Assembly (NCBI GenBank): GCA_001799635.1
Contig: MGTV01000008.1
Coordinates: forward strand, 188,879 to 252,878
DNA from: Elusimicrobia bacterium GWA2_62_23
GTDB taxonomy: Bacteria; Elusimicrobiota; Elusimicrobia; Elusimicrobiales; UBA9959
Direction of reading: 5' to 3'
Length of the DNA stretch: 64,000 nt
In this document: piece by piece, positions 19,580 through 37,380 of the stretch
How positions within the stretch are numbered: position 1 is the stretch's first letter
How the letters are laid out: the number at the start of each line of letters is the position of its first letter
Notes under the pieces: model-generated
What the model saw: only the letters and a program-made list of their open reading frames with translations
The model's database searches: none
Told to the model about the DNA's origin: nothing
Made by a program: the position numbers and the translations under genes

Positions 19580-20854
19580 GTGGGGACCCTGAAAAATCTG
19601 ATAAAAGCGCTGGACCGCGGCGAGGTCACTAACTTCTCGCGCAACTCCTATGAGGTGGTCTTCGCCATCTTCATGGTGGCGCTGGCCTACTTTTACCGCA
19701 ACAGCCCGCAGATAGAGTATCCCACCATCCTTTATTTCTTCCTGCTGCTGCTGGGCGCCAACTTCGCCTTCAACTGGGCGCTGCGCAGCCGCGCCGCCGT
19801 GAACCTCTGGCTGCTGGACCTGATCCTGCTGGCCAATTTCTGGATCATCACCGGCGTGGTCTATTATTCGGGCGGCGGCGCCTCCTATTTCTGGACGCTG
19901 TACCTGCTGCCGGTCTTCGCGGCCTCGCTGATGGCCAGTTTCAAGGACGCCTTCGGGGTGGTCTTTCTCTGCGTGCTGGCCATCGGCGTGATGTCCTGGC
20001 CGCTCGGAGGAGGCGAGCTGGCCAACGTGCTGGGTTTCGCCGTGAAGGTGGCCGTGCTCGCTTTCTCGGCGGGCGTGGTCTATACCACCGCGCAGTCGCG
20101 CAAGCGGGCCGAGGCCGGCCTGGCTTTCAAGCGCATCCAGGTGGAGCGCCTGGAGCGGGAGATAACCGAGAAGGAGAGCGAGCTGGTGAAGAGCGCCACC
20201 GCCGGGGAGGTGGGCACCTTGGCCGCCGGAGTGATGCACGACCTGGGCAACGCCGTTTCCGTGATCCTGCTGAGCGCGCAGATAGCTTCCGAAGAGGAAA
20301 GCCCCGACAAGGCGGACATGGAGCGCATCCTCAAGGCTGCGCGGTTCGCGAAGGGCGTGATCTCCAACGCTTTCGGCCTGGTGCGCGGCCAGGAATACCT
20401 GTTCGAGTCCTCGCCGCTGGGCGAGCCCATAGAGAACGCCGTGCTGCTCACCAATTACGCGGCCCGCAAGAAGAACGTGACGGTTGAAGTGGCCGTGCCC
20501 GCGGGGCTCCCGCCGCTGCGCCTGAGCAAGGTGCACGTGGAGCGGGTCTTCATCAATACCATTTCCAACGCCCTTTCCTTCGTGCCGGAACGCGGCAGCG
20601 TGCGCGTTTCCGCCGCCGAGACCGAAGGCGGGGTGACGGCCGAGGTGGCCGACAGCGGGCCCGGCTTCCCCGAGCGGATGCTCGCGGAAGGGGTGAAGGC
20701 CTTCGGGACCACCCGCAAGGAAAAGGGCGGCACCGGCCTGGGGCTTTACGTCTGCGACCAGATCATGAAGCGCCACGGCGGCCGGATGACGCTTTCCAAC
20801 GGCCCGGCCGGCGGCGGCCGGATACGGTTCTTCTTTCCCTTCAAAGGCCCCTAG
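19580..20854 (+). CDS. Membrane sensor histidine kinase
   Basis: 424 residues with GTG start. About five to six membrane segments lie within residues 25-170, then a coiled linker (about 175-205), and a DHp-like AAGVMHDLGN with H220. The ATPase domain has NTISNALSF (N box), VADSGPGFP and GGTGLGLYVCDQIM (G boxes). It resembles the two kinases at 32 and 35 kb in layout but diverges in sequence. No adjacent response regulator; the REC-MBL protein at 15.6 kb is a possible partner. Confidence 0.88.
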   Translation: MGTLKNLIKALDRGEVTNFSRNSYEVVFAIFMVALAYFYRNSPQIEYPTILYFFLLLLGANFAFNWALRSRAAVNLWLLDLILLANFWIITGVVYYSGGGASYFWTLYLLPVFAASLMASFKDAFGVVFLCVLAIGVMSWPLGGGELANVLGFAVKVAVLAFSAGVVYTTAQSRKRAEAGLAFKRIQVERLEREITEKESELVKSATAGEVGTLAAGVMHDLGNAVSVILLSAQIASEEESPDKADMERILKAARFAKGVISNAFGLVRGQEYLFESSPLGEPIENAVLLTNYAARKKNVTVEVAVPAGLPPLRLSKVHVERVFINTISNALSFVPERGSVRVSAAETEGGVTAEVADSGPGFPERMLAEGVKAFGTTRKEKGGTGLGLYVCDQIMKRHGGRMTLSNGPAGGGRIRFFFPFKGP

Positions 20855-23666: not shown

Positions 23667-24701
23667 GTGAACTACCACATATTAATGAAAGCCGAACTGG
23701 ACAGCTTCGTAAAGAAGCTCTCCAAGAAAATGAAAGTCTGCGCCCCTGTAGCCAAGGGGTATAACAACTTCGCTTTTGAAGAAGTTACCTCGGCCGGCGA
23801 GATAGCCATGGACTATATCCCGACCATACTCCCTCCCAAGAAGTACTTCATGCCCCCTAGGGAGAAACTGCTGGATTTCGACCTGACCGGCGAGAAGCCG
23901 CAGGACAAGGCCGTGCTGGAGGCCGAGCCGCTGGCCGTGTTCGCGGTGCACACCTGCGACCTGGCCGGCATCCAGTGCCTGAACATGGTCTTCTCCGAGC
24001 GGCCCCGCGACTACAACTACCTGCTGCGAAAAGAGAGCATCTTCATTATCGGGCTCGAGTGCAACAAGCCCTGCGACGACAAGGCCAGCTGCGCGCTGGT
24101 GGGCAACCACTACCCGAACGGCGGCTACGACCTCTTCTTCACCGACATCGGCGATAAATGGGTGATCCACGTGAACACCCAGAAGGCCGAGGAGCTGGTG
24201 GAGGGCATGGGCCTGGCCAAGGCCTCCTCCGCCGACCTGGCCGCGCTGGACAAGGTCCGCGAGGGCAAGAAGCACGCCTTCCAGAACGAGATCGGCACGG
24301 ACCCCAAGAAACTGCCCGAGGTCTTCGCCAAGGCCATGGAGAGCAAGGTCTGGCACGACGTGGGCGGCCGGTGCGTCTCCTGCGGCAACTGCACCAATGT
24401 CTGCCCCACCTGCTACTGCTTCGACATGAACGATACCATCAACCTGGACCTGAAGACCGGCTTCCGCACGCGGACCTGGGATTCCTGCCAGTTCGAGACG
24501 TTCGCCGCCGTGGCCGGCGGGGAGAACTTCCGCGAGGAGCGCGCCAACAGGCAGCGGCACCGCTTCTACCGCAAGTTCAAGTACCCGCTCGACAAGTTCT
24601 ACCGCGCGTTCTGCACCGGCTGCGGCCGCTGCACGCGCACCTGCATGGCCAAGATCAGCCTGAAGGACACCCTGAAGGCCCTGGTAGCCGAAAGCAAATA
24701 A
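23667..24701 (+). CDS. hydB: Sulfhydrogenase-type [NiFe] hydrogenase beta subunit (Fe-S)
   Basis: 344 residues. Two 4Fe-4S motifs: CVSCGNCTNVCPTC around residues 235-248 and CTGCGRCTRTC near the C-terminus. The N-terminal half includes VFAVHTCDLAGIQCLN and matches HydB of group 3b hydrogenases, which passes electrons between the hydrogenase core and the flavin subunit. GTG start with GGAGG 6 nt upstream. First of seven genes ending at 29883. Confidence 0.9.
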   Translation: MNYHILMKAELDSFVKKLSKKMKVCAPVAKGYNNFAFEEVTSAGEIAMDYIPTILPPKKYFMPPREKLLDFDLTGEKPQDKAVLEAEPLAVFAVHTCDLAGIQCLNMVFSERPRDYNYLLRKESIFIIGLECNKPCDDKASCALVGNHYPNGGYDLFFTDIGDKWVIHVNTQKAEELVEGMGLAKASSADLAALDKVREGKKHAFQNEIGTDPKKLPEVFAKAMESKVWHDVGGRCVSCGNCTNVCPTCYCFDMNDTINLDLKTGFRTRTWDSCQFETFAAVAGGENFREERANRQRHRFYRKFKYPLDKFYRAFCTGCGRCTRTCMAKISLKDTLKALVAESK

Positions 24702-24711
24702 GAGGACAACC

Positions 24712-25545
24712 ATGACCGAGATACACAATTCCAACTGGAAACTCCGCAAAGGGCAGATCATAGCCGCCAAGCAGATGACGGCCACCGAGAAGTGGTTCGA
24801 CATAAAGCTCGAGGACGGCGACCTGGACCACGAGCCCGGGCAGTTCGTGCAGGTGGAGCTCTACGGCGTGGGCGAAGCGCCCATCTCCGTGTGCTCCAGC
24901 CCCACCAAGCGCGGCTCCTTCGAGCTGACCGTGCGCTCCGCCGGCCGCCTCACCAAGCACATGCAGGGCATGGGCAAGGGCGACTGGCTGGGCATCCGCG
25001 GGCCGTTCGGCAAGCCGTTCCCGGTGAAGCTGATGACCGGCAACGACCTGTTGTTCGTGGCCGGCGGCCTGGGCATAGCGCCCCTGCGCTCGCTCATCAA
25101 TTACGTGATGGACAACCGCCGCGAGTTCGGCAAGGTGGACATCCTGCTGGGCTGCAAGACCCCTACCGACATGCTGTTCGGCGAGGAAATAAAGCAGTGG
25201 CAGAAGCGCCTGGATGTGAACTTCTCCTGCACGGTGGACCGCACGGCCCCCGACTGGAAAGGCAACGTGGGCCTGATCACGAGCCTCATCCCCGGCGTGA
25301 CCATTAACCCGGAGAAGACCTTCTCCGTGGTGGTGGGCCCGCCTATCATGTACAAATTCGTCATAGCCGAGCTCCTGAAGAAGAACCTGCCGGAGCGGCA
25401 GATAGTACTCTCGCTGGAGCGGCACATGAAATGCGGCATGGGGAAATGCGGCCACTGCCAGATAGACCACCCCAAGAACTACTATTGCTGCAAAGACGGC
25501 CCCACCTTCACCTACGAAGAGGTGAAGGAATCGAAGAAACTTTAA
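24712..25545 (+). CDS. hydG: Hydrogenase gamma subunit, FAD/NAD(P)-binding diaphorase
   Basis: 277 residues. FNR-like fold: FAD-contact APISVCSSPTK, nucleotide-binding VAGGLGIAPLRSL, and a C-terminal 2Fe-2S cysteine set in MKCGMGKCGHCQ plus YYCC. In group 3b enzymes this subunit couples H2 to NADP(H) or, in Pyrococcus, sulfur/polysulfide. Lies 10 nt after hydB with GAGGAC as ribosome site. Confidence 0.92.
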   Translation: MTEIHNSNWKLRKGQIIAAKQMTATEKWFDIKLEDGDLDHEPGQFVQVELYGVGEAPISVCSSPTKRGSFELTVRSAGRLTKHMQGMGKGDWLGIRGPFGKPFPVKLMTGNDLLFVAGGLGIAPLRSLINYVMDNRREFGKVDILLGCKTPTDMLFGEEIKQWQKRLDVNFSCTVDRTAPDWKGNVGLITSLIPGVTINPEKTFSVVVGPPIMYKFVIAELLKKNLPERQIVLSLERHMKCGMGKCGHCQIDHPKNYYCCKDGPTFTYEEVKESKKL

Positions 25546-25560
25546 TACGGAGAACATACG

Positions 25561-26352
25561 ATGAAAACCGCTAAAAAACCCGTAAAGACCCCGGCGAAGG
25601 CCCCGAAAGCCGCCGCCAAGCCCAAGGTGGCGTTCTTCGACTTCGCCTCCTGCGAGGGCTGCCAGCTGCAGATCACCAACCTCGGCGAGCTGCTGCTCGA
25701 CGTGCTCGGCGCCATAGACGTGGTGGAGTTCCGCGAGGCCATCAGCGAGAAATGGGACGGCGACTACGACGTGGTCTTCATTGAGGGCTCCATCGGCGAC
25801 CATCACGCCGAGGAACGCCTCAAGAAGATCCGCGCGAGGGCCAAGGTGCTCATAGCCTACGGCGCCTGCGCCTGCACCGGCGGCGTGAACGGCATGAAGA
25901 ACTCCTTCGAGCTCGACGAGATACGCCAGAGCGTGTACGGCAAGGACTATAAGCTGTTCGACAGCACCGCGACGAAGGCCGTGGACCAGGTGGTCAAGGT
26001 GGACTACTACATCAACGGCTGCCCCGTGTACGCCCCGGAGATCCTCGAGGTGGTGAAGCACGCCCTGCGCGGCCTGCCCTACACCGTGCCGGACAACCCG
26101 GTCTGCGCCGAGTGCAAGCTCAACGAGAACGTGTGCATGTACGAGCGCGGCGTGGCCTGCCTGGGTCCCTGGACCAAGGCCGGCTGCAACAGCTGGTGCG
26201 TGAACAACGGCAATATCTGCTACGGCTGCCGCGGCGAGGTGAAGAACCCCGCCAAGAACGCCAACGACGTCATCAGCAAATACAACCTCAAGCCCGAACT
26301 TATCAAGGGTAAGTTCGACATGTACAACAAGTGCAAGGAAGGTGTGAAATAA
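25561..26352 (+). CDS. hydD: [NiFe] hydrogenase small (delta) subunit
   Basis: 263 residues with a Lys/Pro/Ala-rich N-terminal tail of about 22 residues. Cluster ligands: FASCEGCQLQ (proximal), GACACTGGV, then CPVYAPE and the C-terminal cysteine set in CMYERGVACLGPWTKAGC and CVNNGNICYGCRGE, given here in two parts. No Tat signal, so the enzyme is cytoplasmic, as expected for group 3b. Stop overlaps the large-subunit start (TAATG). Confidence 0.92.
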   Translation: MKTAKKPVKTPAKAPKAAAKPKVAFFDFASCEGCQLQITNLGELLLDVLGAIDVVEFREAISEKWDGDYDVVFIEGSIGDHHAEERLKKIRARAKVLIAYGACACTGGVNGMKNSFELDEIRQSVYGKDYKLFDSTATKAVDQVVKVDYYINGCPVYAPEILEVVKHALRGLPYTVPDNPVCAECKLNENVCMYERGVACLGPWTKAGCNSWCVNNGNICYGCRGEVKNPAKNANDVISKYNLKPELIKGKFDMYNKCKEGVK

Positions 26353-27680
26353 TGGCTACCGTGAAAGATCTGGACCTTAAAGTCGAATACGTCACCCGCG
26401 TCGAAGGCCACGGCAACATCGTCGCCAACGTGAAGAACGGCAAGATAGAGAAGTGCGAGTTCCACGTGGTGGAAACGCCCCGCCTGTTCGAGGGCATGCT
26501 GCGCGGCCGCAGCATCTTCGAGGCGCAGCACATAACCAGCCGCATCTGCGGCATCTGCTCCTGCGGTCACTCCCTGGCCAGCGTGAAGGCCGCCGAGGAC
26601 GCGCTGGGCGTGACGCCTACCGAGCAGACCGTGAAGCTCAGGAAGCTCCTGCTCGACTACGAGTTCCTCGACAGCCACATCCTGCACGTGTACCTGCTGG
26701 CCGCCCCCGACGTGCTGGGCGTCCCCTCCTTTATCCCGCTCATCGCCTCGCACAACAAGACCGTGCGCCAGGTGCTGCGCCTTAAGAAGGCCGTGAACGA
26801 CTGCTGCGACATCCTGGTGGGGCGCCACATCCACCCCATCACCATGATAGCGGGCGGCTGGACCAAGCTGCCTTCGAAGAAAGAGATCGACGCCCAGATA
26901 AAGCTGCTCGAGGGCATGGCCGAGGACCTGGGCGAAGTGCTGAAGCTCGCCAAGACCCTGAAGTTCCCCGACTTCCACCGCAAGACCGAGTACGTGGCGC
27001 TGGTCTCCGACGACGCCGAGTACCCGCTGCTCAACGGCGACATCGGCAGCACCGAAGGCAAGCGCGTGAGCTACAAGGACTACAAGAAGTCCACCAACGA
27101 GTTCGTGGACCCGCGCTCTTCGGCCAAGTTCAGCAAGTGGTCCGGCGACAGCGTCTTTGTGGGGGCTCTCGCCCGCTTCAACCTCAACGCGCACAAGCTG
27201 CACCCCAAGGCCAAGGCGCTCGCCAAGGAACTGGGCTTCAAGCCGGTCTGCGACAACCCCTTCATGAACACCGTGGCGCAGGTGGTGGAGATAGTGCACT
27301 GTTACTACCACGCCCTGGAGATCCTCAAGGACCTCAAAAAGACGGGCCTGGACTACAGCCAGCAGCTTACCGTGGGCGTCAACGAGAAAGGCGCCGTGCC
27401 GGTGCGCGCCGGCGACGGCGTGGGCTCGGTGGAGGTGCCGCGCGGCATCCTGCACCACAACTACGTGACGGACAAGAACGGCATGATAAAGCAGGCCAAC
27501 TGCATCATCCCGACCAACCAGAACGTGAATAATATCGAGCACGACTTCGCCAAGTTCCTGCCCGAGATCCTGAACGAGGGGAAGGATAAGATCCGCCTCA
27601 AGCTCGAGATGCTCGTGCGGGCCTACGACCCGTGCATCTCCTGCTCCGCGCATTACCTCGATGTCACCTTCGTGGAATAA
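26352..27680 (+). CDS. hydA: [NiFe] hydrogenase large (alpha) subunit
   Basis: 442 residues. Nickel ligands: N-terminal RICGICSCGH (about 67-76) and C-terminal DPCISCSAH, followed by an 8-residue tail YLDVTFVE that the maturation protease should remove. VTRVEGHGNI is the usual N-terminal motif. With hydB/G/D it forms a cytoplasmic, likely NAD(P)-linked bidirectional H2 enzyme of group 3b. Overlaps the protease gene by 20 nt. Confidence 0.94.
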   Translation: MATVKDLDLKVEYVTRVEGHGNIVANVKNGKIEKCEFHVVETPRLFEGMLRGRSIFEAQHITSRICGICSCGHSLASVKAAEDALGVTPTEQTVKLRKLLLDYEFLDSHILHVYLLAAPDVLGVPSFIPLIASHNKTVRQVLRLKKAVNDCCDILVGRHIHPITMIAGGWTKLPSKKEIDAQIKLLEGMAEDLGEVLKLAKTLKFPDFHRKTEYVALVSDDAEYPLLNGDIGSTEGKRVSYKDYKKSTNEFVDPRSSAKFSKWSGDSVFVGALARFNLNAHKLHPKAKALAKELGFKPVCDNPFMNTVAQVVEIVHCYYHALEILKDLKKTGLDYSQQLTVGVNEKGAVPVRAGDGVGSVEVPRGILHHNYVTDKNGMIKQANCIIPTNQNVNNIEHDFAKFLPEILNEGKDKIRLKLEMLVRAYDPCISCSAHYLDVTFVE

Positions 27681-28146
27681 AGAGGTAGCCGCCGCGCTGG
27701 CCCCCAAGGGCCGGACGCTGGTGATAACGCTGGGCAGTACGTTAAGGGCCGACGATGGCGTCGGCCCTTACGTTTGCTCTCACGTGAAGTTCAACCGGCC
27801 CGACCTGAACCTGCTGGACGCCGGCACCACGCCCGAGAACATAGCCCAGACCGCCATAAACTGGAAGCCGGAAAAGGTTATTCTGGTGGACGCGGCCCAT
27901 TTCCAGGGCGAGCCGGGGGAAATACGGGTTATCCCCCTGGAAGCCATCAACCAGAGCACCATCATGTCCACGCACAGCTTCCCGCTGTCGGTGACCTTCT
28001 CTATAGTGAAGGAAGACACCGGCTGTGAACTGGCGGTGATAGGCGTGCAGGCCAAATCGCTGGATTATAAGGAAGGCCTGAGCCCCGAAGTGGAAAAAAG
28101 CGCTTCCGAACTGGCGGCCTATTTTAATAAGATAGGGAAACCATGA
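27661..28146 (+). CDS. Hydrogenase maturation endopeptidase (HycI/HyaD family)
   Basis: 161 residues. Family motifs LGSTLRADDGVGPYV near residues 25-39, LLDAGTTPEN, ILVDAAHFQGEPG and STHSFPLS provide the metal-binding acidic and histidine residues. It should clip the C-terminal tail of HydA after nickel insertion. Starts inside hydA and its stop overlaps nhaC (ATGA), indicating translational coupling on both sides. Confidence 0.92.
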   Translation: MSPSWNKEVAAALAPKGRTLVITLGSTLRADDGVGPYVCSHVKFNRPDLNLLDAGTTPENIAQTAINWKPEKVILVDAAHFQGEPGEIRVIPLEAINQSTIMSTHSFPLSVTFSIVKEDTGCELAVIGVQAKSLDYKEGLSPEVEKSASELAAYFNKIGKP

Positions 28147-29946: not shown

Positions 29947-30651
29947 TTATTTCAGCTGGTAGGAGACCAGCTTGAGGGTCTGCTGGCTTTCCTCGGCGGT
30001 GATCTGCTCGTAAACCAGGCCCACGCCCGGAGCGTAGTAGCGCTCGGCGGAGCCGGCGTCGCCGCCGCCCAGCTTGGAGACGATCTTGAGGCAGCCGTTG
30101 TAGGCGCCGGCAGGCACTACCGCCTTGGCGTTCAGCGCGGCCACCCGGTTGCGGTCGTAGCCTTCGTTCCAGACCTGGTTATAGACCAGGGGGAAGGGGA
30201 TCTCCAGGCGCGCGCCGGCGAGGGGAGAATCGGAGGAGCGGATGCCGGAGGCGTCCGCGGTCATGACGAAGTTGGAGACCTTGGGCTTGGTCTTGTTGAA
30301 GATGATCATGTTGACCTGGACGGTCTTGGCTGCTTCCGAGTACGCCATGAACTCCACGCGCACGGCCTTTACGCCGGTGAACTCGCTGGAGGTGTATTCG
30401 TATTCGTACACGGCCTTCTTATTGAGCGGCAGGTACTCGGCCGCGGGGGTGTCGCTGTAGCGCTCGTCCGAGCCGATGCCGACCGGGGCGGGCACGCCGA
30501 AAGCCGGCATGTTCTGCGCGGCCCGGTAGAAGTCGGCCGCGAGGCCGGCGTCGGTGCGGGCGAGGACGCTGTCGAGGGCGCCGGCCTGCGCGAAGGCGCA
30601 GAGGGGCGAGAGGAGAAGGGATAAAAATAACGCTGAGTTCAACTTTTTCAT
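29947..30651 (-). CDS. Secreted protein of unknown function
   Basis: 234 residues; not assigned. Signal peptide KKLNSALFLSLLLSPLCAFA. The mature chain has strand-rich stretches KKAVYEYEYTSSEFTGVKAV and ERYYAPGVGLVYEQITAEE, the pattern of small lipocalin-like or DUF3108-like periplasmic proteins whose role is unknown. GGAGG lies 9 nt before the ATG. A 7-3-7 palindrome (30668-30684) sits just upstream and may be an operator. Confidence 0.72.
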   Translation of the reverse strand: MKKLNSALFLSLLLSPLCAFAQAGALDSVLARTDAGLAADFYRAAQNMPAFGVPAPVGIGSDERYSDTPAAEYLPLNKKAVYEYEYTSSEFTGVKAVRVEFMAYSEAAKTVQVNMIIFNKTKPKVSNFVMTADASGIRSSDSPLAGARLEIPFPLVYNQVWNEGYDRNRVAALNAKAVVPAGAYNGCLKIVSKLGGGDAGSAERYYAPGVGLVYEQITAEESQQTLKLVSYQLK

Positions 30652-31096
30652 AGCAACAAGCCTCCGAAATATAGATTCTATATTCCCGATACTTTGTGCT
30701 AAGTTCCTATAGGTGGGGGGAAACTTAACGCGTCTTCCGAATACTCATTGGGAAGAACATCACCGCGCGGGTAGTCTTTGGACTTTTCGGATACCTTCGC
30801 GGCTTGTAAGCTACGGTAACAACTAGTATTAGGATAGCAAATCCCGCCGCCCCTGTCAACATTCGCGACATTTGCGACTTTTGAGATTTAAGGCAGGCCG
30901 AATAACAGGAGCGGGTGGCGACGGGTATGCTTTCGGAGGGGCGTCGCGGAGGCCGAGGCTTACGCAAGCGACGAGGCCGAGCGACGAGCGGCGAGCACGG
31001 TGTGCGAGACCGCGTACCCGAAGAAAGCATACCCTCGCCAGGCCCCGCGAACTTGCAGGCCTGCCGATTAGGCTGATTTTGTATAATTTCACTACT
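30652..31096. other. 445-nt intergenic region with palindromes and a large hairpin
   Basis: Contains the palindrome AATATAG-ATT-CTATATT (30668-30684), a lower-GC stretch (30690-30900) with no convincing gene, the large imperfect inverted repeat at 30917-31039, and the hypA -10 TATAAT (31082-31087). I see no RNA gene I can name. Confidence 0.6.
30917..31039. repeat. Large imperfect inverted repeat upstream of hypA
   Basis: Arms of about 20 nt (30917-30936 and 31018-31039) share the core GGGTATGCTTTC / GAAAGCATACCC. The interior of about 80 nt is GC-rich with repeated GCGACGAG/GAGGCCGAG units. Could be a non-autonomous element or a structured RNA. Confidence 0.6.
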
Positions 31097-31501
31097 ATGC
31101 ATGAATGGGCACTGGCAGAATCAGTGATAAAGACCGCCGTGGAGCATTCCAAGGCGCAGAAACTCAAAAAGCTCAAAGAGACCGGGGTGCTGTTCGGCGA
31201 ACTCCAGGCCATAGACAAGGAGATCTTCGTCTTCGCCCTGGAGGAGCTGCGCGCGCAGTTCCCGGCCGCCAAGGCCTGCAAGTTCAAGGTTTCCACCGAA
31301 CCCGCCGCCTTCCGCTGCAAGGCCTGCTCCCACGAATTCCCGCTCAAGGGCCTGAAGAAGACCAAGGACGAAAGCGAATTCATACACTTCGTGCCCGAAA
31401 TGGCGCACACCTTCCTCAAATGCCCCAAGTGCAAGAGCCCGGATTTCGAAATAGCCAGGGGCCGCGGCGTTTCCATTTCCTATATAAAGGGCGAAAAATG
31501 A
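31097..31501 (+). CDS. hypA: Hydrogenase nickel chaperone HypA
   Basis: 134 residues. Starts MHE, whose amino terminus and His2 bind nickel. The zinc site is CKAC ... CPKC, separated by an insertion of about 33 residues as in archaeal (Thermococcus) HypA rather than the short bacterial form. Delivers Ni to the hydrogenase large subunit. -10 TATAAT ends 9 nt before the ATG with no Shine-Dalgarno site. Stop overlaps the next start (ATGA). Confidence 0.92.
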   Translation: MHEWALAESVIKTAVEHSKAQKLKKLKETGVLFGELQAIDKEIFVFALEELRAQFPAAKACKFKVSTEPAAFRCKACSHEFPLKGLKKTKDESEFIHFVPEMAHTFLKCPKCKSPDFEIARGRGVSISYIKGEK

Positions 31502-32205
31502 CGGCCATAGACCCGCGCCCCTCGGTAATAGCGGAGCGCCTCTCGGGCGTAAAGCGCATCATAGCCGTGACCGGCTGGAAAGGCGGCATAGGCAAGAGCG
31601 TGACCGCCACTACCCTGGCCCTGCTGCTGGCCCGCCAGGGGCATAAGGTGGGCCTGTTCGACCTGGACTTCGCCGGCGCCTCGGACCACCTGATACTCGG
31701 CGCCAAAGGCATTTTCCCGAAAGAAGAGAAAGGCCTGGAACCGCCCGTGTACGAAGGCGTGAAGTTCATGAGCGTGGTGTTCTTCTCCGAGAACAAGGCC
31801 GTGCCGCTGCGCGGCGCCAACGTGTCCGACGCCATCATAGAACTGCTGGCCATAACGCAGTGGGGCGAACTTGATTTCCTGGTGCTCGACATGCCGCCCG
31901 GCATAAACGACGCCGCCCTGGACGTGATGCGCTTCGCCCGCAAGGCCGAAGTGCTGGCCGTCACCACCCCGTCGCTCCTCGCGCACGACGTGCTGGCCCG
32001 GTCCATGGACCTCTATAAGAAACTTAAAGTCCCGGTTCTCGGAGTGCTGGAGAACATGGCGGACAAGGCGGGCCCGCGCAAGCTGCGCCGGGACCCGGCG
32101 CTGGAAAAGGCCCTGGGGCGGCCTGAAAAGCTGCTTGGGACCGCTTTCGCTAAGGACCTGGCCCGCGCCGCGGCCAGGCTGGGCCTTAAGCCCCGCCGCG
32201 CATGA
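31498..32205 (+). CDS. Mrp/MinD-family ATPase, likely HypB-type nickel-insertion partner
   Basis: 235 residues. Deviant Walker A KGGIGKS near residue 26, DLDFAGASDH, and LDMPPGINDA (Walker B region). In Thermococcus a Mrp/MinD-type HypB forms a complex with HypA and drives Ni transfer; the adjacency here to an archaeal-style hypA supports the same role. A generic Mrp Fe-S carrier is the alternative. Overlaps both neighbours by ATGA. Confidence 0.78.
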   Translation: MTAIDPRPSVIAERLSGVKRIIAVTGWKGGIGKSVTATTLALLLARQGHKVGLFDLDFAGASDHLILGAKGIFPKEEKGLEPPVYEGVKFMSVVFFSENKAVPLRGANVSDAIIELLAITQWGELDFLVLDMPPGINDAALDVMRFARKAEVLAVTTPSLLAHDVLARSMDLYKKLKVPVLGVLENMADKAGPRKLRRDPALEKALGRPEKLLGTAFAKDLARAAARLGLKPRRA

Positions 32206-33476
32206 CCGAGATCTCCACTATGGAAGAAAAGACCAGGAACTTCCTCAGGCTCCACTCCTTGATGTCCGGGGTGATGGGCCTGGTGGCGTCCCTGATACTC
32301 CTAGCCACCGAATTCCCGTCCCACAGGGAACTTTCGATCCTTTCTTTGTTCGCCGCGGCGATGTACCTGACCTATTTCTTCTTCTTCAAGCTGATCTGTA
32401 GGACCTGCTACCGGCACGCCGGGGTGATACTGAGCCAGATAGGGGTAGGCATAGTCACCTGCGCGGTATATTTTACCGGCGGCATAGTTTCGCCTTTTAT
32501 CTTCCTCTACTTCGCTCTGCTGCTCTCCGAGGCCATGTACGGCCTGGAGAACCCGGTTACTCTGCCCGCCAGCCTGGCCGGCTACCTGCTTACGGTAGCG
32601 GTGCAATTCTTCGGCCTCCTGCCCAATCCCGCGCCGTGGTCCGAGGCGGTTTACCGGAGTCCACTTGGCGTGGCTCTCATAGCTTTTCTTACATCCGCCT
32701 ACCTGGCGATGACGAGGGGCGTGACCGGGAGGATAATTTACAGCCTGCGGGCCAAGATAGAGAGCGAGACCGTGGAGAAAGCCGGCCTGCTCAAGAAATT
32801 CTCGGAGCTCAACGCCAGCGCTCAGATAGGTTCGCTGGCGCACCGCATAGCGCATGACCTGCGCGCCCCTCTCTCCTCTATTTCCGGCTACGTACAGATG
32901 GAACTGCTCAACCCGCGTTCCGGGGAGGCCAGGACGGCGCTGACGGACCTTAACTCCACCGTGGATGGTATGGCGGAGGCCCTCTCGTGCATCACGCGCT
33001 TTGGCAAGCCTTCAGAAGGTCCGGCGGAGCGGATACAGGTCCCCGAATTTTTCCGGCAGCTGCTGGCCATAGCGGCTTTTTCGCCGAACTCCCGCGGCGT
33101 CCGGTTCGTTAAGAAGTATCCAGAAGACCTCGACGCCTGGGTCTGCGCCTCGCGCTCGGATATGCAGCAGGCGTATTTCAATATACTCAAGAACGCCATG
33201 GAAGCCACTCAGGACAACGCCGCCGGCAGGGTGATAGAGGTGACGGTGCGGCGCGTGGATAAAGAGATAGAAGTCTGCCTGGCGGACAACGGACCCGGGA
33301 TGCCGTCCGAGGCGCTCAAGAACATTTTCCGCAAATCCATAACCACTAAAAAGAACGGCACCGGAGTGGGGCTGGTGATAACCCGGGACATTCTGACCCG
33401 CAACGACGGCTACATAGAGTTCCGCAACCGGCCCGAGGGGGGGCTGGAGGTGGTGACCCGCCTGCCCGCGTCCTGA
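32202..33476 (+). CDS. Membrane sensor histidine kinase 1 of the hyp-linked cassette
   Basis: 424 residues. About six membrane segments in residues 20-175, linker helix, DHp motif IAHDLRAPLSSISGYVQME, and a complete ATPase domain: ILKNAMEATQDN (N box), LADNGPGMP, and KKNGTGVGLVITRDI. Translationally coupled to the HypB-like gene (ATGA). Closely related to the kinase at 34744, to the point that long DNA stretches match. No receiver-domain gene is in the cassette. Confidence 0.88.
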   Translation: MTEISTMEEKTRNFLRLHSLMSGVMGLVASLILLATEFPSHRELSILSLFAAAMYLTYFFFFKLICRTCYRHAGVILSQIGVGIVTCAVYFTGGIVSPFIFLYFALLLSEAMYGLENPVTLPASLAGYLLTVAVQFFGLLPNPAPWSEAVYRSPLGVALIAFLTSAYLAMTRGVTGRIIYSLRAKIESETVEKAGLLKKFSELNASAQIGSLAHRIAHDLRAPLSSISGYVQMELLNPRSGEARTALTDLNSTVDGMAEALSCITRFGKPSEGPAERIQVPEFFRQLLAIAAFSPNSRGVRFVKKYPEDLDAWVCASRSDMQQAYFNILKNAMEATQDNAAGRVIEVTVRRVDKEIEVCLADNGPGMPSEALKNIFRKSITTKKNGTGVGLVITRDILTRNDGYIEFRNRPEGGLEVVTRLPAS

Positions 33477-33524
33477 CCTGTTATTTCCCGGCTAAACTTT
33501 GTATCATAAACGCGGGGATACATC

Positions 33525-33845
33525 ATGCCGGTCTATCTTATAACTTACAGCGTCTTGTTCTGGCTGCCCGCGCTGTTTTTCATCGCCTTCCTGCTGAAGG
33601 CGTTCGACGCTCCTTTGAAGAAGTCCTTCTGGGCCGCCTGCGCCGCCATGGCCGTCGTCTCCGTGGTCATGGAATACCTCTTCCTCAAATTCGACGTCTG
33701 GTTCTTTTCCGAGAAGATAGACCGGCTGCTGGGCCTGTGGATAGGGCCCGCCCCGGTGGAGGAATTCGTGTTCTGGTTCGGCGCCACGCCTTTCTGCCTG
33801 GCCATCTACCTGTCGTACTGCAAGCTTTTTAAAAAAAATGCCTGA
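33525..33845 (+). CDS. Lycopene-cyclase-like small membrane protein A
   Basis: 106 residues, three membrane segments (about 5-27, 35-54, 76-98). The loop GPAPVEEFVFWFGATP has the PxEE motif typical of heterodimeric (CrtYc/CrtYd-type) lycopene cyclase domains. GGGGA lies 8 nt before the ATG. Overlaps the next gene by 8 nt. No carotenoid biosynthesis enzymes (crtB, crtI) are in the window, so cyclase activity is not established. Confidence 0.72.
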   Translation: MPVYLITYSVLFWLPALFFIAFLLKAFDAPLKKSFWAACAAMAVVSVVMEYLFLKFDVWFFSEKIDRLLGLWIGPAPVEEFVFWFGATPFCLAIYLSYCKLFKKNA

Positions 33846-34218
33846 CATCGACGAACTCCTCAGCGAAGAGGATAAAAAGAAGAAAGACGCGACGGCTCAG
33901 AAAAAATGGCCGGCCAGCGTGCTGCTGGCCGCCCCGTTCTTCTTTATAGTAATCCCGCTCTACAAGGCCGCCAAGGAGCGCGTGAACTGGAAGGCCGCCA
34001 TAGCCATGGTCTGCACTTTCGAGGTGTTGATGTTCTTCGCGGAGTTCTTCTCGGTCTCCCGCGGTCACTGGATCTGGAACCCCAACCGCACGCTGGGGCC
34101 CACGGTGTTCGGGATCCCCATAGAAGAGCCGCTGCTCTACTACTGGTTCCCGCCGCTTTTCGTGGTGATACTCCTGCACGCGCTGGAGCCGCTGTTCGGC
34201 CGGAAGGCGGACAGATGA
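33838..34218 (+). CDS. Lycopene-cyclase-like small membrane protein B
   Basis: 126 residues with a charged N-terminal tail (about 1-22) and three membrane segments. GHWIWNPNRTLGPTVFGIPI followed by EEPLLYYWFP is the second lycopene cyclase half motif (PxEE). Together with protein A it would make a six-helix heterodimer as in CrtYc/CrtYd. Overlaps both neighbours (8 nt, and ATGA). Confidence 0.72.
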   Translation: MPDIDELLSEEDKKKKDATAQKKWPASVLLAAPFFFIVIPLYKAAKERVNWKAAIAMVCTFEVLMFFAEFFSVSRGHWIWNPNRTLGPTVFGIPIEEPLLYYWFPPLFVVILLHALEPLFGRKADR

Positions 34219-34757
34219 CCCTGCTGCTGCTGGAGATCTGGGGTTTCCTGCAGGTGCCGGTTGTCTGGTGGCTGTTCCACCGTTATGCCCGGCGCAACGT
34301 GGCCGGAGAGATGCTGGCCGGCGCCGTTGTGGGCGTCTTCTGGGAGATTTCCACCGAGCCGCTGTGGGATTACTTCTTCCGGGTCACTTTCTATCGCGAC
34401 GCCCCGGTGGCCGTCATCACCGGCTGGATGGTGATGTTCGCTCTGATAACTTTCGTGTCCGAGAAACTCTATAAGTTCTGCCTGCGGCGGTCCGCCATAG
34501 CCCCGCGGGACAAGCGCATTTTCTTTTTCGACGTGCTGGCCGCGGCGCTGGTCTCGCTGCCCATGGAGACGCTGGGGGCCAAACTGGGGGTCTGGAGCTA
34601 CCGCCAGGACATCCTGCGGTGGGATTGGGGCCTGATCCCCTTTTTCAACATGCCCTGGGAGATAATGTTCGGGTATTCGCTGCTGATGCTGGTGGCGCCC
34701 ACCTTCGTGCGTTATTGGGAAGGGTCCTTCGAGGGGGGAGCCGATGAGGGCCGTTGA
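34215..34757 (+). CDS. Third membrane protein of the cassette, possibly cyclase-related
   Basis: 180 residues, about five hydrophobic segments. GAVVGVFWEISTEPLWDYFF and IPFFNMPWEIMFGYSLLML carry W-E-I and P-W-E-I elements like the acidic membrane motifs of the cyclase family, and SLPMETLGAKLGVWSY resembles GHWIWNP-type loops. It could be a diverged third cyclase-fold subunit. Not assignable further. Overlaps the previous gene (ATGA) and the kinase 2 start by 14 nt. Confidence 0.65.
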   Translation: MTLLLLEIWGFLQVPVVWWLFHRYARRNVAGEMLAGAVVGVFWEISTEPLWDYFFRVTFYRDAPVAVITGWMVMFALITFVSEKLYKFCLRRSAIAPRDKRIFFFDVLAAALVSLPMETLGAKLGVWSYRQDILRWDWGLIPFFNMPWEIMFGYSLLMLVAPTFVRYWEGSFEGGADEGR

Positions 34758-36018
34758 CACGCACGACGGGAAACTGCGCTACCATGACGCGCTGCGCCCG
34801 AACCTCCTGGCCATAGTAGCCTGCACTTTTGTGGCTTCCTGGATGTGCCTCCTGCCCGGCTTTCCTTTTCACCCAGGCTTCTGCGTGGCCGCGGCCGTTT
34901 CCTCGGCAGTCCATCTGGCGGCGTTCCTGTTCTTCAAGGGGTTCGAGGCCAGGCCATGGACCTTCGAGGCCATGGCGCTGTTCAATATCCTGTTGCTGGG
35001 GTTCATAGTGCATTTCACCGGCGGCATCATGTCCCCTTTCGTTTTCTTCTATTTCTGGATCCTCGCCTCAGCTATCATCTACGGCGTTAAGGACCGAGTT
35101 GCCACCTATTTTGCCATGGTTACCTACGGCGGGCTCGTCCTGGCCGAGGCCTCTGGTCTGTTGGCGCCGTTCGGGACGGCCAGCAGGGAAGTTTACGCTT
35201 CCAGGATCATGACCGCCATGGTGGCCGCGGCCATCCTTTTCTTCATTATGATGACGCGCTACATAACCACCCTGGTGCTGGAGAACCTCCGCGCCAGGCT
35301 GGAGCGGGAGAACTCCGAGAAGGAGGGCCTGCTTAAGAAATTCTCAGAGCTGGACTCCACGGCGCAGATAGGTTCGCTGGCGCACCGCATAGCGCACGAC
35401 CTGCGCGCCCCGCTCTCCTCCATCTCCGGCTACGTACAGATGGAACTGATGAGGAAACATCCTGCAGACAAGATGAGCGAGCTGCTCGATCTCAACGCCA
35501 CCGTGACTTCCATGGCCGAGTCCCTGCACTGCATCACCCGCTTCGGCAAAGTGACGGCGGTGCCGGCCGAGCGCATACAGGTCACTGAATTCTTCCGCCA
35601 GCTGCTGGCCATCGCCGCTTTTTCGCCGCAGGCCAGGGGCGTCCGTTTTATAAAGAGCTACCAGGCGGGCCACGACGTCTGCGTGTGCGCCTCCCGCTCG
35701 GATATGCAGCAGGCTTACTTCAATATTGTCAAGAATGCCCTGGAAGCCACCCAGGACAATTCCGGAGGGCGGACAATAGAGGTTTCCGTCCGCGTCGTGG
35801 AGAAGGAAGTGGAGGTCTGCGTGGCGGACAATGGTCCGGGCATGCCCCCGGAGATGCTAAAGAACCTTTTCCGCAAGTCCATCACCACCAAGAAGGACGG
35901 CACCGGGGTGGGGTTGGTGATAACGCGCGACATCTTGGCCCGCAACGACGGTTATATGGAGTTCAGGAACCGCACCGGCGGAGGGCTAGCGGTAGTCACC
36001 AGGCTGCCCGTCGCCTGA
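34744..36018 (+). CDS. Membrane sensor histidine kinase 2 of the cassette
   Basis: 424 residues, same length and domain order as kinase 1: about six membrane segments (residues 20-170), DHp IAHDLRAPLSSISGYVQME, ATPase ITTKKDGTGVGLVITRDI. The membrane sensor halves differ far more than the kinase halves, suggesting paralogues that sense different inputs but may share an output. Last gene of the ATGA-linked cassette starting at hypA. Confidence 0.88.
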   Translation: MRAVDTHDGKLRYHDALRPNLLAIVACTFVASWMCLLPGFPFHPGFCVAAAVSSAVHLAAFLFFKGFEARPWTFEAMALFNILLLGFIVHFTGGIMSPFVFFYFWILASAIIYGVKDRVATYFAMVTYGGLVLAEASGLLAPFGTASREVYASRIMTAMVAAAILFFIMMTRYITTLVLENLRARLERENSEKEGLLKKFSELDSTAQIGSLAHRIAHDLRAPLSSISGYVQMELMRKHPADKMSELLDLNATVTSMAESLHCITRFGKVTAVPAERIQVTEFFRQLLAIAAFSPQARGVRFIKSYQAGHDVCVCASRSDMQQAYFNIVKNALEATQDNSGGRTIEVSVRVVEKEVEVCVADNGPGMPPEMLKNLFRKSITTKKDGTGVGLVITRDILARNDGYMEFRNRTGGGLAVVTRLPVA

Positions 36019-36019
36019 G

Positions 36020-36055
36020 TTGCCAGCCGGTCTTTCAAATCGTATAATCTTAACG
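36020..36055 (+). promoter_or_regulatory. Sigma70-type promoter of the FadL-like gene
   Basis: TTGCCA (36020-36025), 17-nt spacer, TATAAT (36043-36048). Predicted start near 36055 and leader of about 48 nt ending in GGAGGG. Confidence 0.7.
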
Positions 36056-36102
36056 GATGCTTGGGTAGGGTATCCTCAACTCACTTCTCGGGAGGGTTCA
36101 TT

Positions 36103-37380
36103 GTGAATACATCATTGGATCGGGGGATTGGCATTCGGCTGGCCGGACTTGCTTTGTCCGGCTTTCTTTTTGCCGCGGCCGCGCCGGCCGGGCTTAGCGC
36201 GTCCGGCTACGAGTTCGACGGGGTTGGCGCGCGTTCCATAGCGCGCGGCGGCGCCGTGATAGCCGACGCGGCCGACTGGAGCGCCATCTACTGGAACCCG
36301 GCCAATTTGGCCGACGTGAAGCGCCGCGAGGCGGGCCTGGAGCTGAAAGCCGGCGCCAGCCACAGCCGCGACGGCAACTCCTTCAATGTTTCCGGCACCG
36401 GGAATATATTCTCTAAAAAGAAAGTCGACTCTTCCTTCTTCTTCGGTTCGGCCGGCTCCGCGGTGCCCCTCGACGAAGACTCCGTTCTCGGTGTAGGCGT
36501 GTATCTGCCGCTGCTGCAGGGCGCCAAGTTCAAGGACAACCGCCCGGTTAACGCCGCTTTCAACAGCATAGATTACGAAGGCAGCGCGGCCATAGGCGTA
36601 GGGAACATCTCTTACGCGCGCCGCCTTACCGAGAAGTTTTCCGGGGCGGCCGGGGTCAACCTGATATACGGGCGGATCAAGTCGGATATGACTTTGGACT
36701 ACACGCTTATACTTCCCGGGCCCATAGTTGTCGGGCCTGATGTGCTGACCCAGGACATGGAAGCCAGCGGCTATGCCGTGGAGGCCGTGTTGGGCGGAAA
36801 ATATCAGATCAGCGAGGGGCTCACCGCAGGCGCCGTCTTCCGTTCAGGGGCCAAGGTGAAGCTGCAGGGCGAGGCAAATGCCGTCTCCAACCAGCTTGGC
36901 ACCGAGAAGAGCGACATGGAATTCACGCTCAAACAGCCGCCCACCAGCGGCGTGGGCTTGGCCTGGAAGTACCGCCAGGACGTTACCTTTACCTGCGACT
37001 TCACGCAGACCTGGTGGCGCGGTTTTTCCAACGCCATAGACTATAAAACCCCCGGCACCATCCTTGTCGACACTAGCAACACCTTCGACTGGAAAACCTC
37101 CTACAAGTACCGCTTGGGCGCGCTGTGGAGATACAGCGAGCGCACGGACTTCATGGCCGGCTACGCCTACGACACGCCAGCCATAGACGGCGGCAGCATA
37201 GACTTCTCCAGCGCCATAGACGTGCCCATGCACCGCTTCACCGCGGCCGCGAGCCGCAGGTGGGGGGATTTTGAGGGCACACTGACCGGCCTGGTGGGCT
37301 ACAACTCCCGCAATACCAACGGCGTGAACTACCGCCTGGGCGGCGAATACCTGATAGCCGAAGGCAAGTACCGGTTCTGA
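36103..37380 (+). CDS. FadL/OmpP1-like outer-membrane hydrophobic-compound transporter
   Basis: 425 residues; GTG start at 36103 with GGAGGG 6 nt upstream. Signal peptide (GLALSGFLFAAAAPAGLSA), then the family start YEFDGVGARSIARGGAVIAD and DWSAIYWNPANLAD, alternating strands, and terminal KYRF with the outer-membrane C-terminal Phe. FadL proteins import hydrophobic substrates. It lies between the cyclase/kinase cassette and the cobalamin riboswitch; a substrate cannot be read from sequence. Confidence 0.85.
   Translation: MNTSLDRGIGIRLAGLALSGFLFAAAAPAGLSASGYEFDGVGARSIARGGAVIADAADWSAIYWNPANLADVKRREAGLELKAGASHSRDGNSFNVSGTGNIFSKKKVDSSFFFGSAGSAVPLDEDSVLGVGVYLPLLQGAKFKDNRPVNAAFNSIDYEGSAAIGVGNISYARRLTEKFSGAAGVNLIYGRIKSDMTLDYTLILPGPIVVGPDVLTQDMEASGYAVEAVLGGKYQISEGLTAGAVFRSGAKVKLQGEANAVSNQLGTEKSDMEFTLKQPPTSGVGLAWKYRQDVTFTCDFTQTWWRGFSNAIDYKTPGTILVDTSNTFDWKTSYKYRLGALWRYSERTDFMAGYAYDTPAIDGGSIDFSSAIDVPMHRFTAAASRRWGDFEGTLTGLVGYNSRNTNGVNYRLGGEYLIAEGKYRF

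Follow-up and report, generated by a model that had tools for sequence, protein, structure and literature searches.

Lycopene-cyclase-domain membrane proteins paired with a RegB/PilS-like sensor kinase in Elusimicrobiota, a putative isoprenoid-responsive module

The window analyzed here is a stretch of 64,000 nucleotides (nt) from Elusimicrobia bacterium GWA2_62_23 (contig MGTV01000008.1, positions 188,879 to 252,878; G000:C8:188879-252878), whose genome, G000, is a 2.98 Mb draft that is 92% complete. Seven co-directional open reading frames (ORFs) on the forward strand, at 31097-36018, encode HypA, a HypB-type ATPase of the archaeal kind, a sensor histidine kinase (HK1), three membrane proteins (lycA, lycB, and C), and a second kinase (HK2). 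A preliminary description of this DNA had them head to tail with short overlaps and one 48-nt gap, and all seven were found in this layout: neighboring genes overlap by 4 nt (hypA/HypB, HypB/HK1, and lycB/C), 8 nt (lycA/lycB), or 14 nt (C/HK2), and the sole intergenic gap in this interval, of 48 nt, separates HK1 from lycA. The genes lycA (33525-33845), lycB (33838-34218), C (34215-34757), and HK2 (34744-36018) are followed, on the same strand, by a gene for an OmpP1/FadL-type outer-membrane protein, which starts at 36061 (TTG) or 36103 (GTG) and ends at 37380.

The recurring unit is lycA-lycB-C-HK, with zero to two copies of C and usually with OmpP1/FadL. We examined 25 loci from 23 genomes, G000 being included in all distribution counts; the loci were picked by matches to C or to the TIGR03462 model, and the kinase was not a criterion. 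Twenty-four carry lycA and lycB (14 of them from one genus), and the other, L131, lies at a contig end. A histidine kinase (HK) gene is next downstream of lycA-lycB, with or without C and the fusion relative D described below, at 22 of the 24 loci, which span nine genera and five families and vary in their flanks. OmpP1 comes next after the kinase at 17 of the 24 and is adjacent but divergent in L122. C is present at 21 loci, the L128 copy coming after OmpP1. Four stretches (L124, L126, L129, and L130) are cut by contig ends, and absences there are soft. The gene order seen in the window recurs in other genomes and is therefore not due to chance, and the proposed grouping of the cyclase-like genes with a kinase holds. 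The coordinates 31097-36018 were given correctly, but the OmpP1/FadL gene outside them usually belongs to the unit.

The module is spread patchily over Elusimicrobiota, independently of hypAB. A search with the single C sequence matched 10 of 61 genomes, all of one genus, and a C profile matched 18 of 294 phylum genomes, in 10 of 90 genera; the profile searches covered Elusimicrobiota genomes only. TIGR03462 was matched in 11 of 37 genomes. Scanning the contigs of an 84,980-species collection with two peptide patterns returned 16 loci, 14 titled Elusimicrobia or with the phylum or order name and 2 titled 'bacterium', and C was not found in 72,556 plasmid records. The 13 genomes (of 294) matched by a D profile are all among the 23 module genomes, so this search found no lycopene-cyclase-domain gene outside them. 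Searches of an open-access library listed none that treats lycopene-cyclase-domain proteins together with a kinase.

LycA and lycB are CrtYc/CrtYd-like single-domain membrane proteins. The lycB product exceeds the PF18916 cut-off (34.3 vs 27 bits) and falls below that of TIGR03462 (29.5 vs 39.4), and lycA stays below both (21.0 vs 27 and 33.9 vs 39.4); the lycA orthologues of G001 and G010 exceed the TIGR03462 cut-off. The PxEE motif, which we take to be typical of the CrtYc/CrtYd family, reads PVEE in the lycA and PIEE in the lycB of the window and is kept in 24/24 lycA and 24/24 lycB sequences.

For protein C, Pfam gave nothing at E ≤ 1, and no NCBIfam model matched meaningfully. Its C-terminal half, aligned by hhalign with a combined lycA and lycB profile, matched with a probability of 75.9% (E = 2.3e-5, score 32.4). 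Among the controls, 40 column shuffles scored at most 21.5, lycA against lycB scored 37.3, and windows of the kinase membrane half, the kinase core, and a PF04240-like protein scored 12.5, 9.9, and 23.4, respectively. The N-terminal half did not match this profile (0.4%), and whole C matched the single profiles weakly (11.6% for lycA alone, 1.2% for lycB alone). When C was compared with lycA in a smaller early set, the result (probability 5%) was not strong enough for use; the match came with the wider combined profile. By profile comparison, then, C is assigned to the lycopene-cyclase-domain superfamily via its C-terminal half, in keeping with the original view of three lycopene-cyclase-like membrane proteins. 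Seven residues of C (E44, D62, E118, W127, Y129, P147, and E149) are invariant in 30/30 sequences.

HK1 (32202-33476) and HK2 contain six hydrophobic segments each and exceed the PF02518 cut-off (64.0 and 67.7, respectively); PF00512 scored 25.9 in HK1, just below its cut-off of 26.9. We assume a likeness of both to the six-transmembrane PilS kinases. The H-, N-, and G-box patterns are present in both window kinases; in other family members they failed to pick up some of the boxes. All 29 aligned family kinases share GGxxSP[F/L/M/Y], which reads GGIVSPF in HK1 and GGIMSPF in HK2. The RegB quinone-site heptapeptide GGxxNPF itself was not matched by the family kinases, in which Ser replaces Asn to give a close variant; one report has coenzyme Q1 binding to RegB at GGXXNPF (PMC10525716). 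The NCBIfam model for ActS/PrrB/RegB (NF033792) scored 68.4 with HK1 and 87.5 with HK2, both far below its cut-off of 350.

As supposed from the outset, the two kinases are paralogous: they are 55% identical overall, 75% in the cores, and 29% in the sensor halves. Each of the two cores is nearer to the other than to any of the 28 other aligned kinases (next best 65% and 63%), and the HK1 sensor half finds its nearest relatives (57%) among the HK1-type kinases from elsewhere in the genome set. High core and low sensor identity would be expected after recent gene conversion or under strong selection for one output. Only in G000 do the paired cores clearly resemble each other more than they resemble other kinases; in the seven remaining same-genome pairs, core identity (33-61%) lies within or below the between-genome range. 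Response regulators are adjacent or nearby at 5 of the 24 loci. Two regulators upstream of lycA, from two families, combine a C-terminal receiver with an N-terminal HTH_17/MerR-like domain, which is over the cut-off in L122 (L122:3418-3987) and just under it in L127 (L127:7620-8186). Elsewhere in the window, at 19580-20854, lies a further sensor kinase of 424 amino acids (aa), without GGxxSPF and distant from HK1 and HK2.

The OmpP1 product scored 66.2 with PF03349 (cut-off 29.7). A sigma-70-like site directly after HK2 (36020-36048) has 11 of 12 matches, in a scan that gave 4 sites against 2.4 expected, a weak sign that OmpP1 may be transcribed separately from its own promoter. At seven of the 24 loci (L022-L025, L028, L029, and L031), OmpP1 is followed by a PF04240-like protein, X280. 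PF04240, which presumably represents CruF-type hydratases, was over the cut-off in 6 of the 294 phylum genomes and in all six lay at the module. It was also over the cut-off in G001, a genome outside that sample that holds one further sub-cut-off match elsewhere. X280 of L031 gave no Pfam match by hmmscan and was over the cut-off in the genome search; two other copies passed hmmscan. Windows of this protein (L031:11447-12286) reached a score of 23.4 (probability 18.5%) against the lyc profile, a weak hint that it may be akin to the lycopene-cyclase domain. C as a relative of X280/PF04240 was rejected, there being no profile match.

Protonation of the last isoprene unit of a linear polyisoprenoid is the mode of action that CrtY-type cyclases and CruF-type hydratases have in common. 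We tentatively propose, with somewhat less than even confidence, that the module binds a linear polyisoprenoid, probably modifies its end, and signals via the RegB/PilS-like kinase. LycA and lycB would form a CrtYc/CrtYd-like heteromer, which C would join. The substrate would be a linear polyisoprenoid, but not lycopene; its terminal C=C bond would be bound, and probably protonated, by the PxEE-type acids, leading to cyclization or hydration of that end. Because the desaturase is mostly missing, as detailed below, the common denominator would be a linear polyisoprenoid whose end is unmodified, such as a quinone tail, squalene or a polyprenol, or an imported hydrophobic compound entering through FadL. 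Near GGxxSPF, the membrane domain of HK2 would detect either the ligand, once bound or modified, or the quinone pool, and HK2 would then pass phosphate to a response regulator. Since the sensor halves of HK1 and HK2 differ and their cores are very similar, the two membrane inputs of G000, HK1 from the hypAB neighborhood and HK2, would probably converge on one regulator.

The kinase neighbor at most loci, the retained PxEE acids, the invariant residues of C, the shared GGxxSP motif, the nearby response regulators, and the confinement of PF04240 to module loci all speak for this proposal, as do the close cores of HK1 and HK2 and the kinship of the HK1 sensor half. The presence of a RegB-like kinase and of a FadL-type porin accords with the sensing and uptake of lipids, and the lipid or isoprenoid ligand named as a likely theme in the preliminary description is supported. 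Several points weigh on the other side. The kinase is absent at two of the 24 loci (L073 and L130) and C at three (L072-L074). Nothing else in the set comes close to the HK2 sensor half (best 34%), the comparison with RegB draws on one motif (SPF, not NPF) and a sub-cut-off model match, and no response regulator is found among the window's seven genes. As lycA and lycB of G000 lie below the TIGR03462 cut-off, catalysis may have been lost despite the motif. The FadL label derives from PF03349, NCBIfam giving PorV (43.9) and BamG (42.1), both sub-cut-off; and true CrtI genes in one module genome, G120, leave carotenoid substrates possible in some genomes. A wider reading, which we hold to be doubtful, is that lycopene-cyclase-fold proteins were recruited as a multi-subunit, Insig-like isoprenoid input, possibly still catalytic, which gates the RegB-like kinase of a two-component system in hosts mostly without carotenoid synthesis, and that hydrogenase-neighborhood and lipid inputs were merged by paralogous kinases whose sensor halves diverged and whose cores were kept alike in one genome.

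Insig is a sterol-responsive membrane partner, and lycA, lycB, and C might likewise be lipid-binding subunits that gate the kinase and are no longer enzymes, a possibility that we judge unlikely. The kinase coupling at 22 of the 24 loci would suit such a role, as would the predicted fold of C. An AF2 model built from 30 C sequences (pLDDT 88.3, pTM 0.82) has five long helices, compared with three segments by hydropathy count. Its top PDB match by Foldseek was MvINS, the mycobacterial Insig homologue (4xu6/4xu4), with a probability of 0.97, and the remaining 48 of the 50 PDB matches listed have probabilities of at most 0.16. The E-value of this match is 0.16, and the superposition on 4xu6 gave TMq 0.49, TMt 0.47, and a root-mean-square deviation (rmsd) of 6.3. 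The C profile found no sequence match to Insig chains at E ≤ 1. We treat the modeled Insig likeness of C as a lead only. A bacterial Insig homologue is described as having nearly the structure of Insig (PMC9233655). Comparison of the C model with a viral structure library gave nothing useful, a phage protein labeled 'lysozyme' being matched with probability 0.97, TMq 0.44, and E 0.09.

The D protein, a natural two-domain fusion relative of the lycopene-cyclase domain, occurs at three loci, and one of the three is over the TIGR03462 cut-off. In its low-confidence model (pLDDT 59.8), three Insig chains had the highest TMq among the 50 matches listed, 0.32-0.36 versus at most 0.23 for the others; these matches are insignificant (E > 3, probability ≤ 0.18). 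Against a purely sensory trio stands the retention of the PxEE acids in 48/48 lycA and lycB sequences, a degree of conservation for which passive binding offers no obvious need.

Modification of a carotenoid or apocarotenoid, imported through FadL or made by an unrecognized pathway and regulated by the kinase, is suggested by the family names PF18916 and PF04240 together with the retained PxEE, and we regard it as quite improbable in view of the carotenoid genes. SQS_PSY genes occur in 35 of 37 genomes. G000 has two, which count in favor of our polyisoprenoid proposal; one is matched best by HpnD (257.5 vs 278.6, just under the cut-off) and the other only weakly (94.4), and neither is a crtB equivalog. 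No CrtI match at E ≤ 1e-15 was found in G000, a 92% complete draft. The 37 genomes all match CrtI at E ≤ 0.001, mostly by short N-terminal pieces, and none is over the cut-off; among the 23 module genomes, three match at E ≤ 1e-15 and only G120 is over the cut-off. Long sub-cut-off CrtI-like matches in five relatives (G003, G004, G008, G012, and G022) might be taken as support for carotenoids, but only G003 and G022 carry the module, and their sub-cut-off genes lie beside three radical-SAM-like genes on contigs other than the module's. In G120, two genes of the CrtI family do exceed the cut-off (455.3 and 369 vs 238.1; L181:6786-11273, G120:C46) and have an ORF between them, but they lie on a contig separate from that of the module.

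The combination for making lycopene, phytoene synthase plus desaturase, was not found in G000, and the missing CrtI weakens the reading of the module as a plain lycopene cyclase. The absence of crtB and crtI had first been noted for the window; the cyclase-like genes do not always travel with carotenoid genes in Elusimicrobiota. As separate observations, the ORF between the G120 CrtI genes is aldehyde dehydrogenase-like by eye, perhaps as part of a C30-carotenoid set. In L182:6335-12178 and L183:1782-7625, a CrtI-like gene stands in a run with three genes resembling B12-radical-SAM proteins, runs that we take to resemble lipid clusters such as that for ladderane.

Upstream of the module, the window carries predicted nickel-insertion genes. 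The predicted metallochaperone HypA (31097-31501) exceeds the NF003008 cut-off (149.5 vs 125 bits, NCBIfam) and matches PF01155 (78.3), the single such match in G000. The ATPase (31498-32205), likely the HypA partner, is of the Mrp/NUBPL type (PF10609, 168.1 bits) and carries the database label 'ParA/MinD family, Mrp homolog'. Its top solved relative is 3vx3/5aun-5auq (218.8 bits, the next scoring 116.2), which we take to be Thermococcus kodakarensis HypB-AT and its HypA complex. This relationship and the 4-nt overlap with hypA bear out its HypB-AT membership, and with it the HypA and HypB-like pair first proposed. At 23667-28146 lie a sulfhydrogenase-like gene set, some 3.4-7.4 kb upstream of hypA and presumably group 3b-like, and its protease; sulfhydrogenase models rank first or second for the subunits, below the cut-off, and the protease is over that of TIGR00072.

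The preliminary description had tied the trio and both kinases to hydrogenase state, and sensing of that state, or of nickel-insertion status, now appears very unlikely. This neighborhood would favor it, as would the hypAB genes directly upstream of the module (0 or 1 gene between) at 10 of the 24 loci and the co-directional HK1-family gene that immediately follows hypB in 11 of the 25 genomes (out of 46) that have hypB. At three further loci, hypAB lies within about 9 kb (L027, as seen in stretch L192, L072, and L073). All 13 of these loci fall in family f1, and at the other 11, including all five outside f1, hypAB is not near the module in the stretch seen, some of these stretches being short or running into a contig end. 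The second module copy of G022 lies at another site (L030). Conversely, and often within the genus, hypAB has an HK1-type kinase of its own but no adjacent cyclase-like genes, as in G005, G009, G024, G021, and G023, in G014, where the module is on another contig, and in G007 and G010, where lycA-lycB lies about 3-4 kb away. The module is thus found away from hypAB, and hypAB-HK1 in turn away from the module, on which grounds we rejected a hydrogenase-state system as the principal interpretation. The seven genes do not form a single ancient unit, and the link to hydrogenase is local synteny.

HK1 was likewise rejected as part of the module, the interval between hypB and lycA being variable: among the 10 hypAB-adjacent loci, it holds a kinase in the window, L025, and L028, a B12-radical-SAM gene in L026 and L031, and no gene of those sought in L023, L024, L029, L121, and L128. 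Kinases on both sides of the trio, expected earlier to be the conserved order, are the exception, an HK-family gene lying directly upstream of lycA at only four of the 24 loci (the window, L025, L027, and L028). The B12-binding radical-SAM protein in the place of HK1 (L031:5933-7426 and L026:10154-11647) is BchE-like, the L031 copy scoring 298.3 against a cut-off of 481.35. Another cluster follows hypAB(-HK1) in L184, L185, L189, L191, and L192, with L186 similar, and by eye comprises a receiver protein, an ORF of about 600-720 aa, and an exported protein of about 295 aa. In the window, about 440 nt without an identifiable gene (30652-31096) separate hypA from a divergent gene (29947-30651, reverse strand). 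A TATAAT in 31082-31097, seen by eye and absent from the promoter scan output, ends some 10 nt upstream of the hypA start codon (ATG), so almost no leader would remain.

A fortuitous order of ordinary cyclase-like genes beside an unrelated kinase is highly improbable: adjacency can be inherited within a genus and one genus supplies 14 of the 24 loci, but the kinase adjacency extends over nine genera and five families with differing flanking genes.

If the proposed polyisoprenoid module is real, 'carotenoid cyclase' names would mispredict pigments in many members of the phylum, and proteins so named would serve the sensing or modification of another isoprenoid. The module would then stand as a bacterial parallel to membrane complexes that sense lipids, and the connection that it makes between membrane isoprenoids and two-component signaling in poorly cultured bacteria could be tested.

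Among known systems, the heterodimeric CrtYc/CrtYd lycopene cyclase, described for Myxococcus xanthus (PMC9304148), resembles lycA and lycB in that these are small, adjacent, membrane-bound, domain-homologous, and PxEE-bearing. The module differs in mostly lacking crtI in the genome, in having the extra diverged C, a kinase partner, and usually FadL, and in the scores of the window lycA and lycB, which fall below the TIGR03462 cut-off. CruF-type hydratases have a likely relative in the PF04240-like protein after OmpP1 at 7 of the 24 module loci, but G000 has no PF04240 match. With RegB/PrrB/ActS, the kinases share a six-transmembrane N-terminus, a GGxx[S/N]PF-type motif, and a similar kinase core; they differ in having SPF, not NPF, in the NCBIfam score of HK2 (87.5 vs 350), in that no RegA gene was seen beside it, and in the partner membrane proteins. 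Like the Thermococcus HypA-HypB-AT pair, the window HypA, of the PRK03824 type, adjoins an Mrp-type ATPase nearest 3vx3, whereas the window pair is found in a bacterium beside a sulfhydrogenase-like gene set. Finally, Insig and MvINS are linked to the module by the top fold match of C and by the known role of Insig as a lipid-responsive membrane partner; C is unlike them in sequence, matched with a weak E-value, and is modeled with five helices where MvINS presumably has six.

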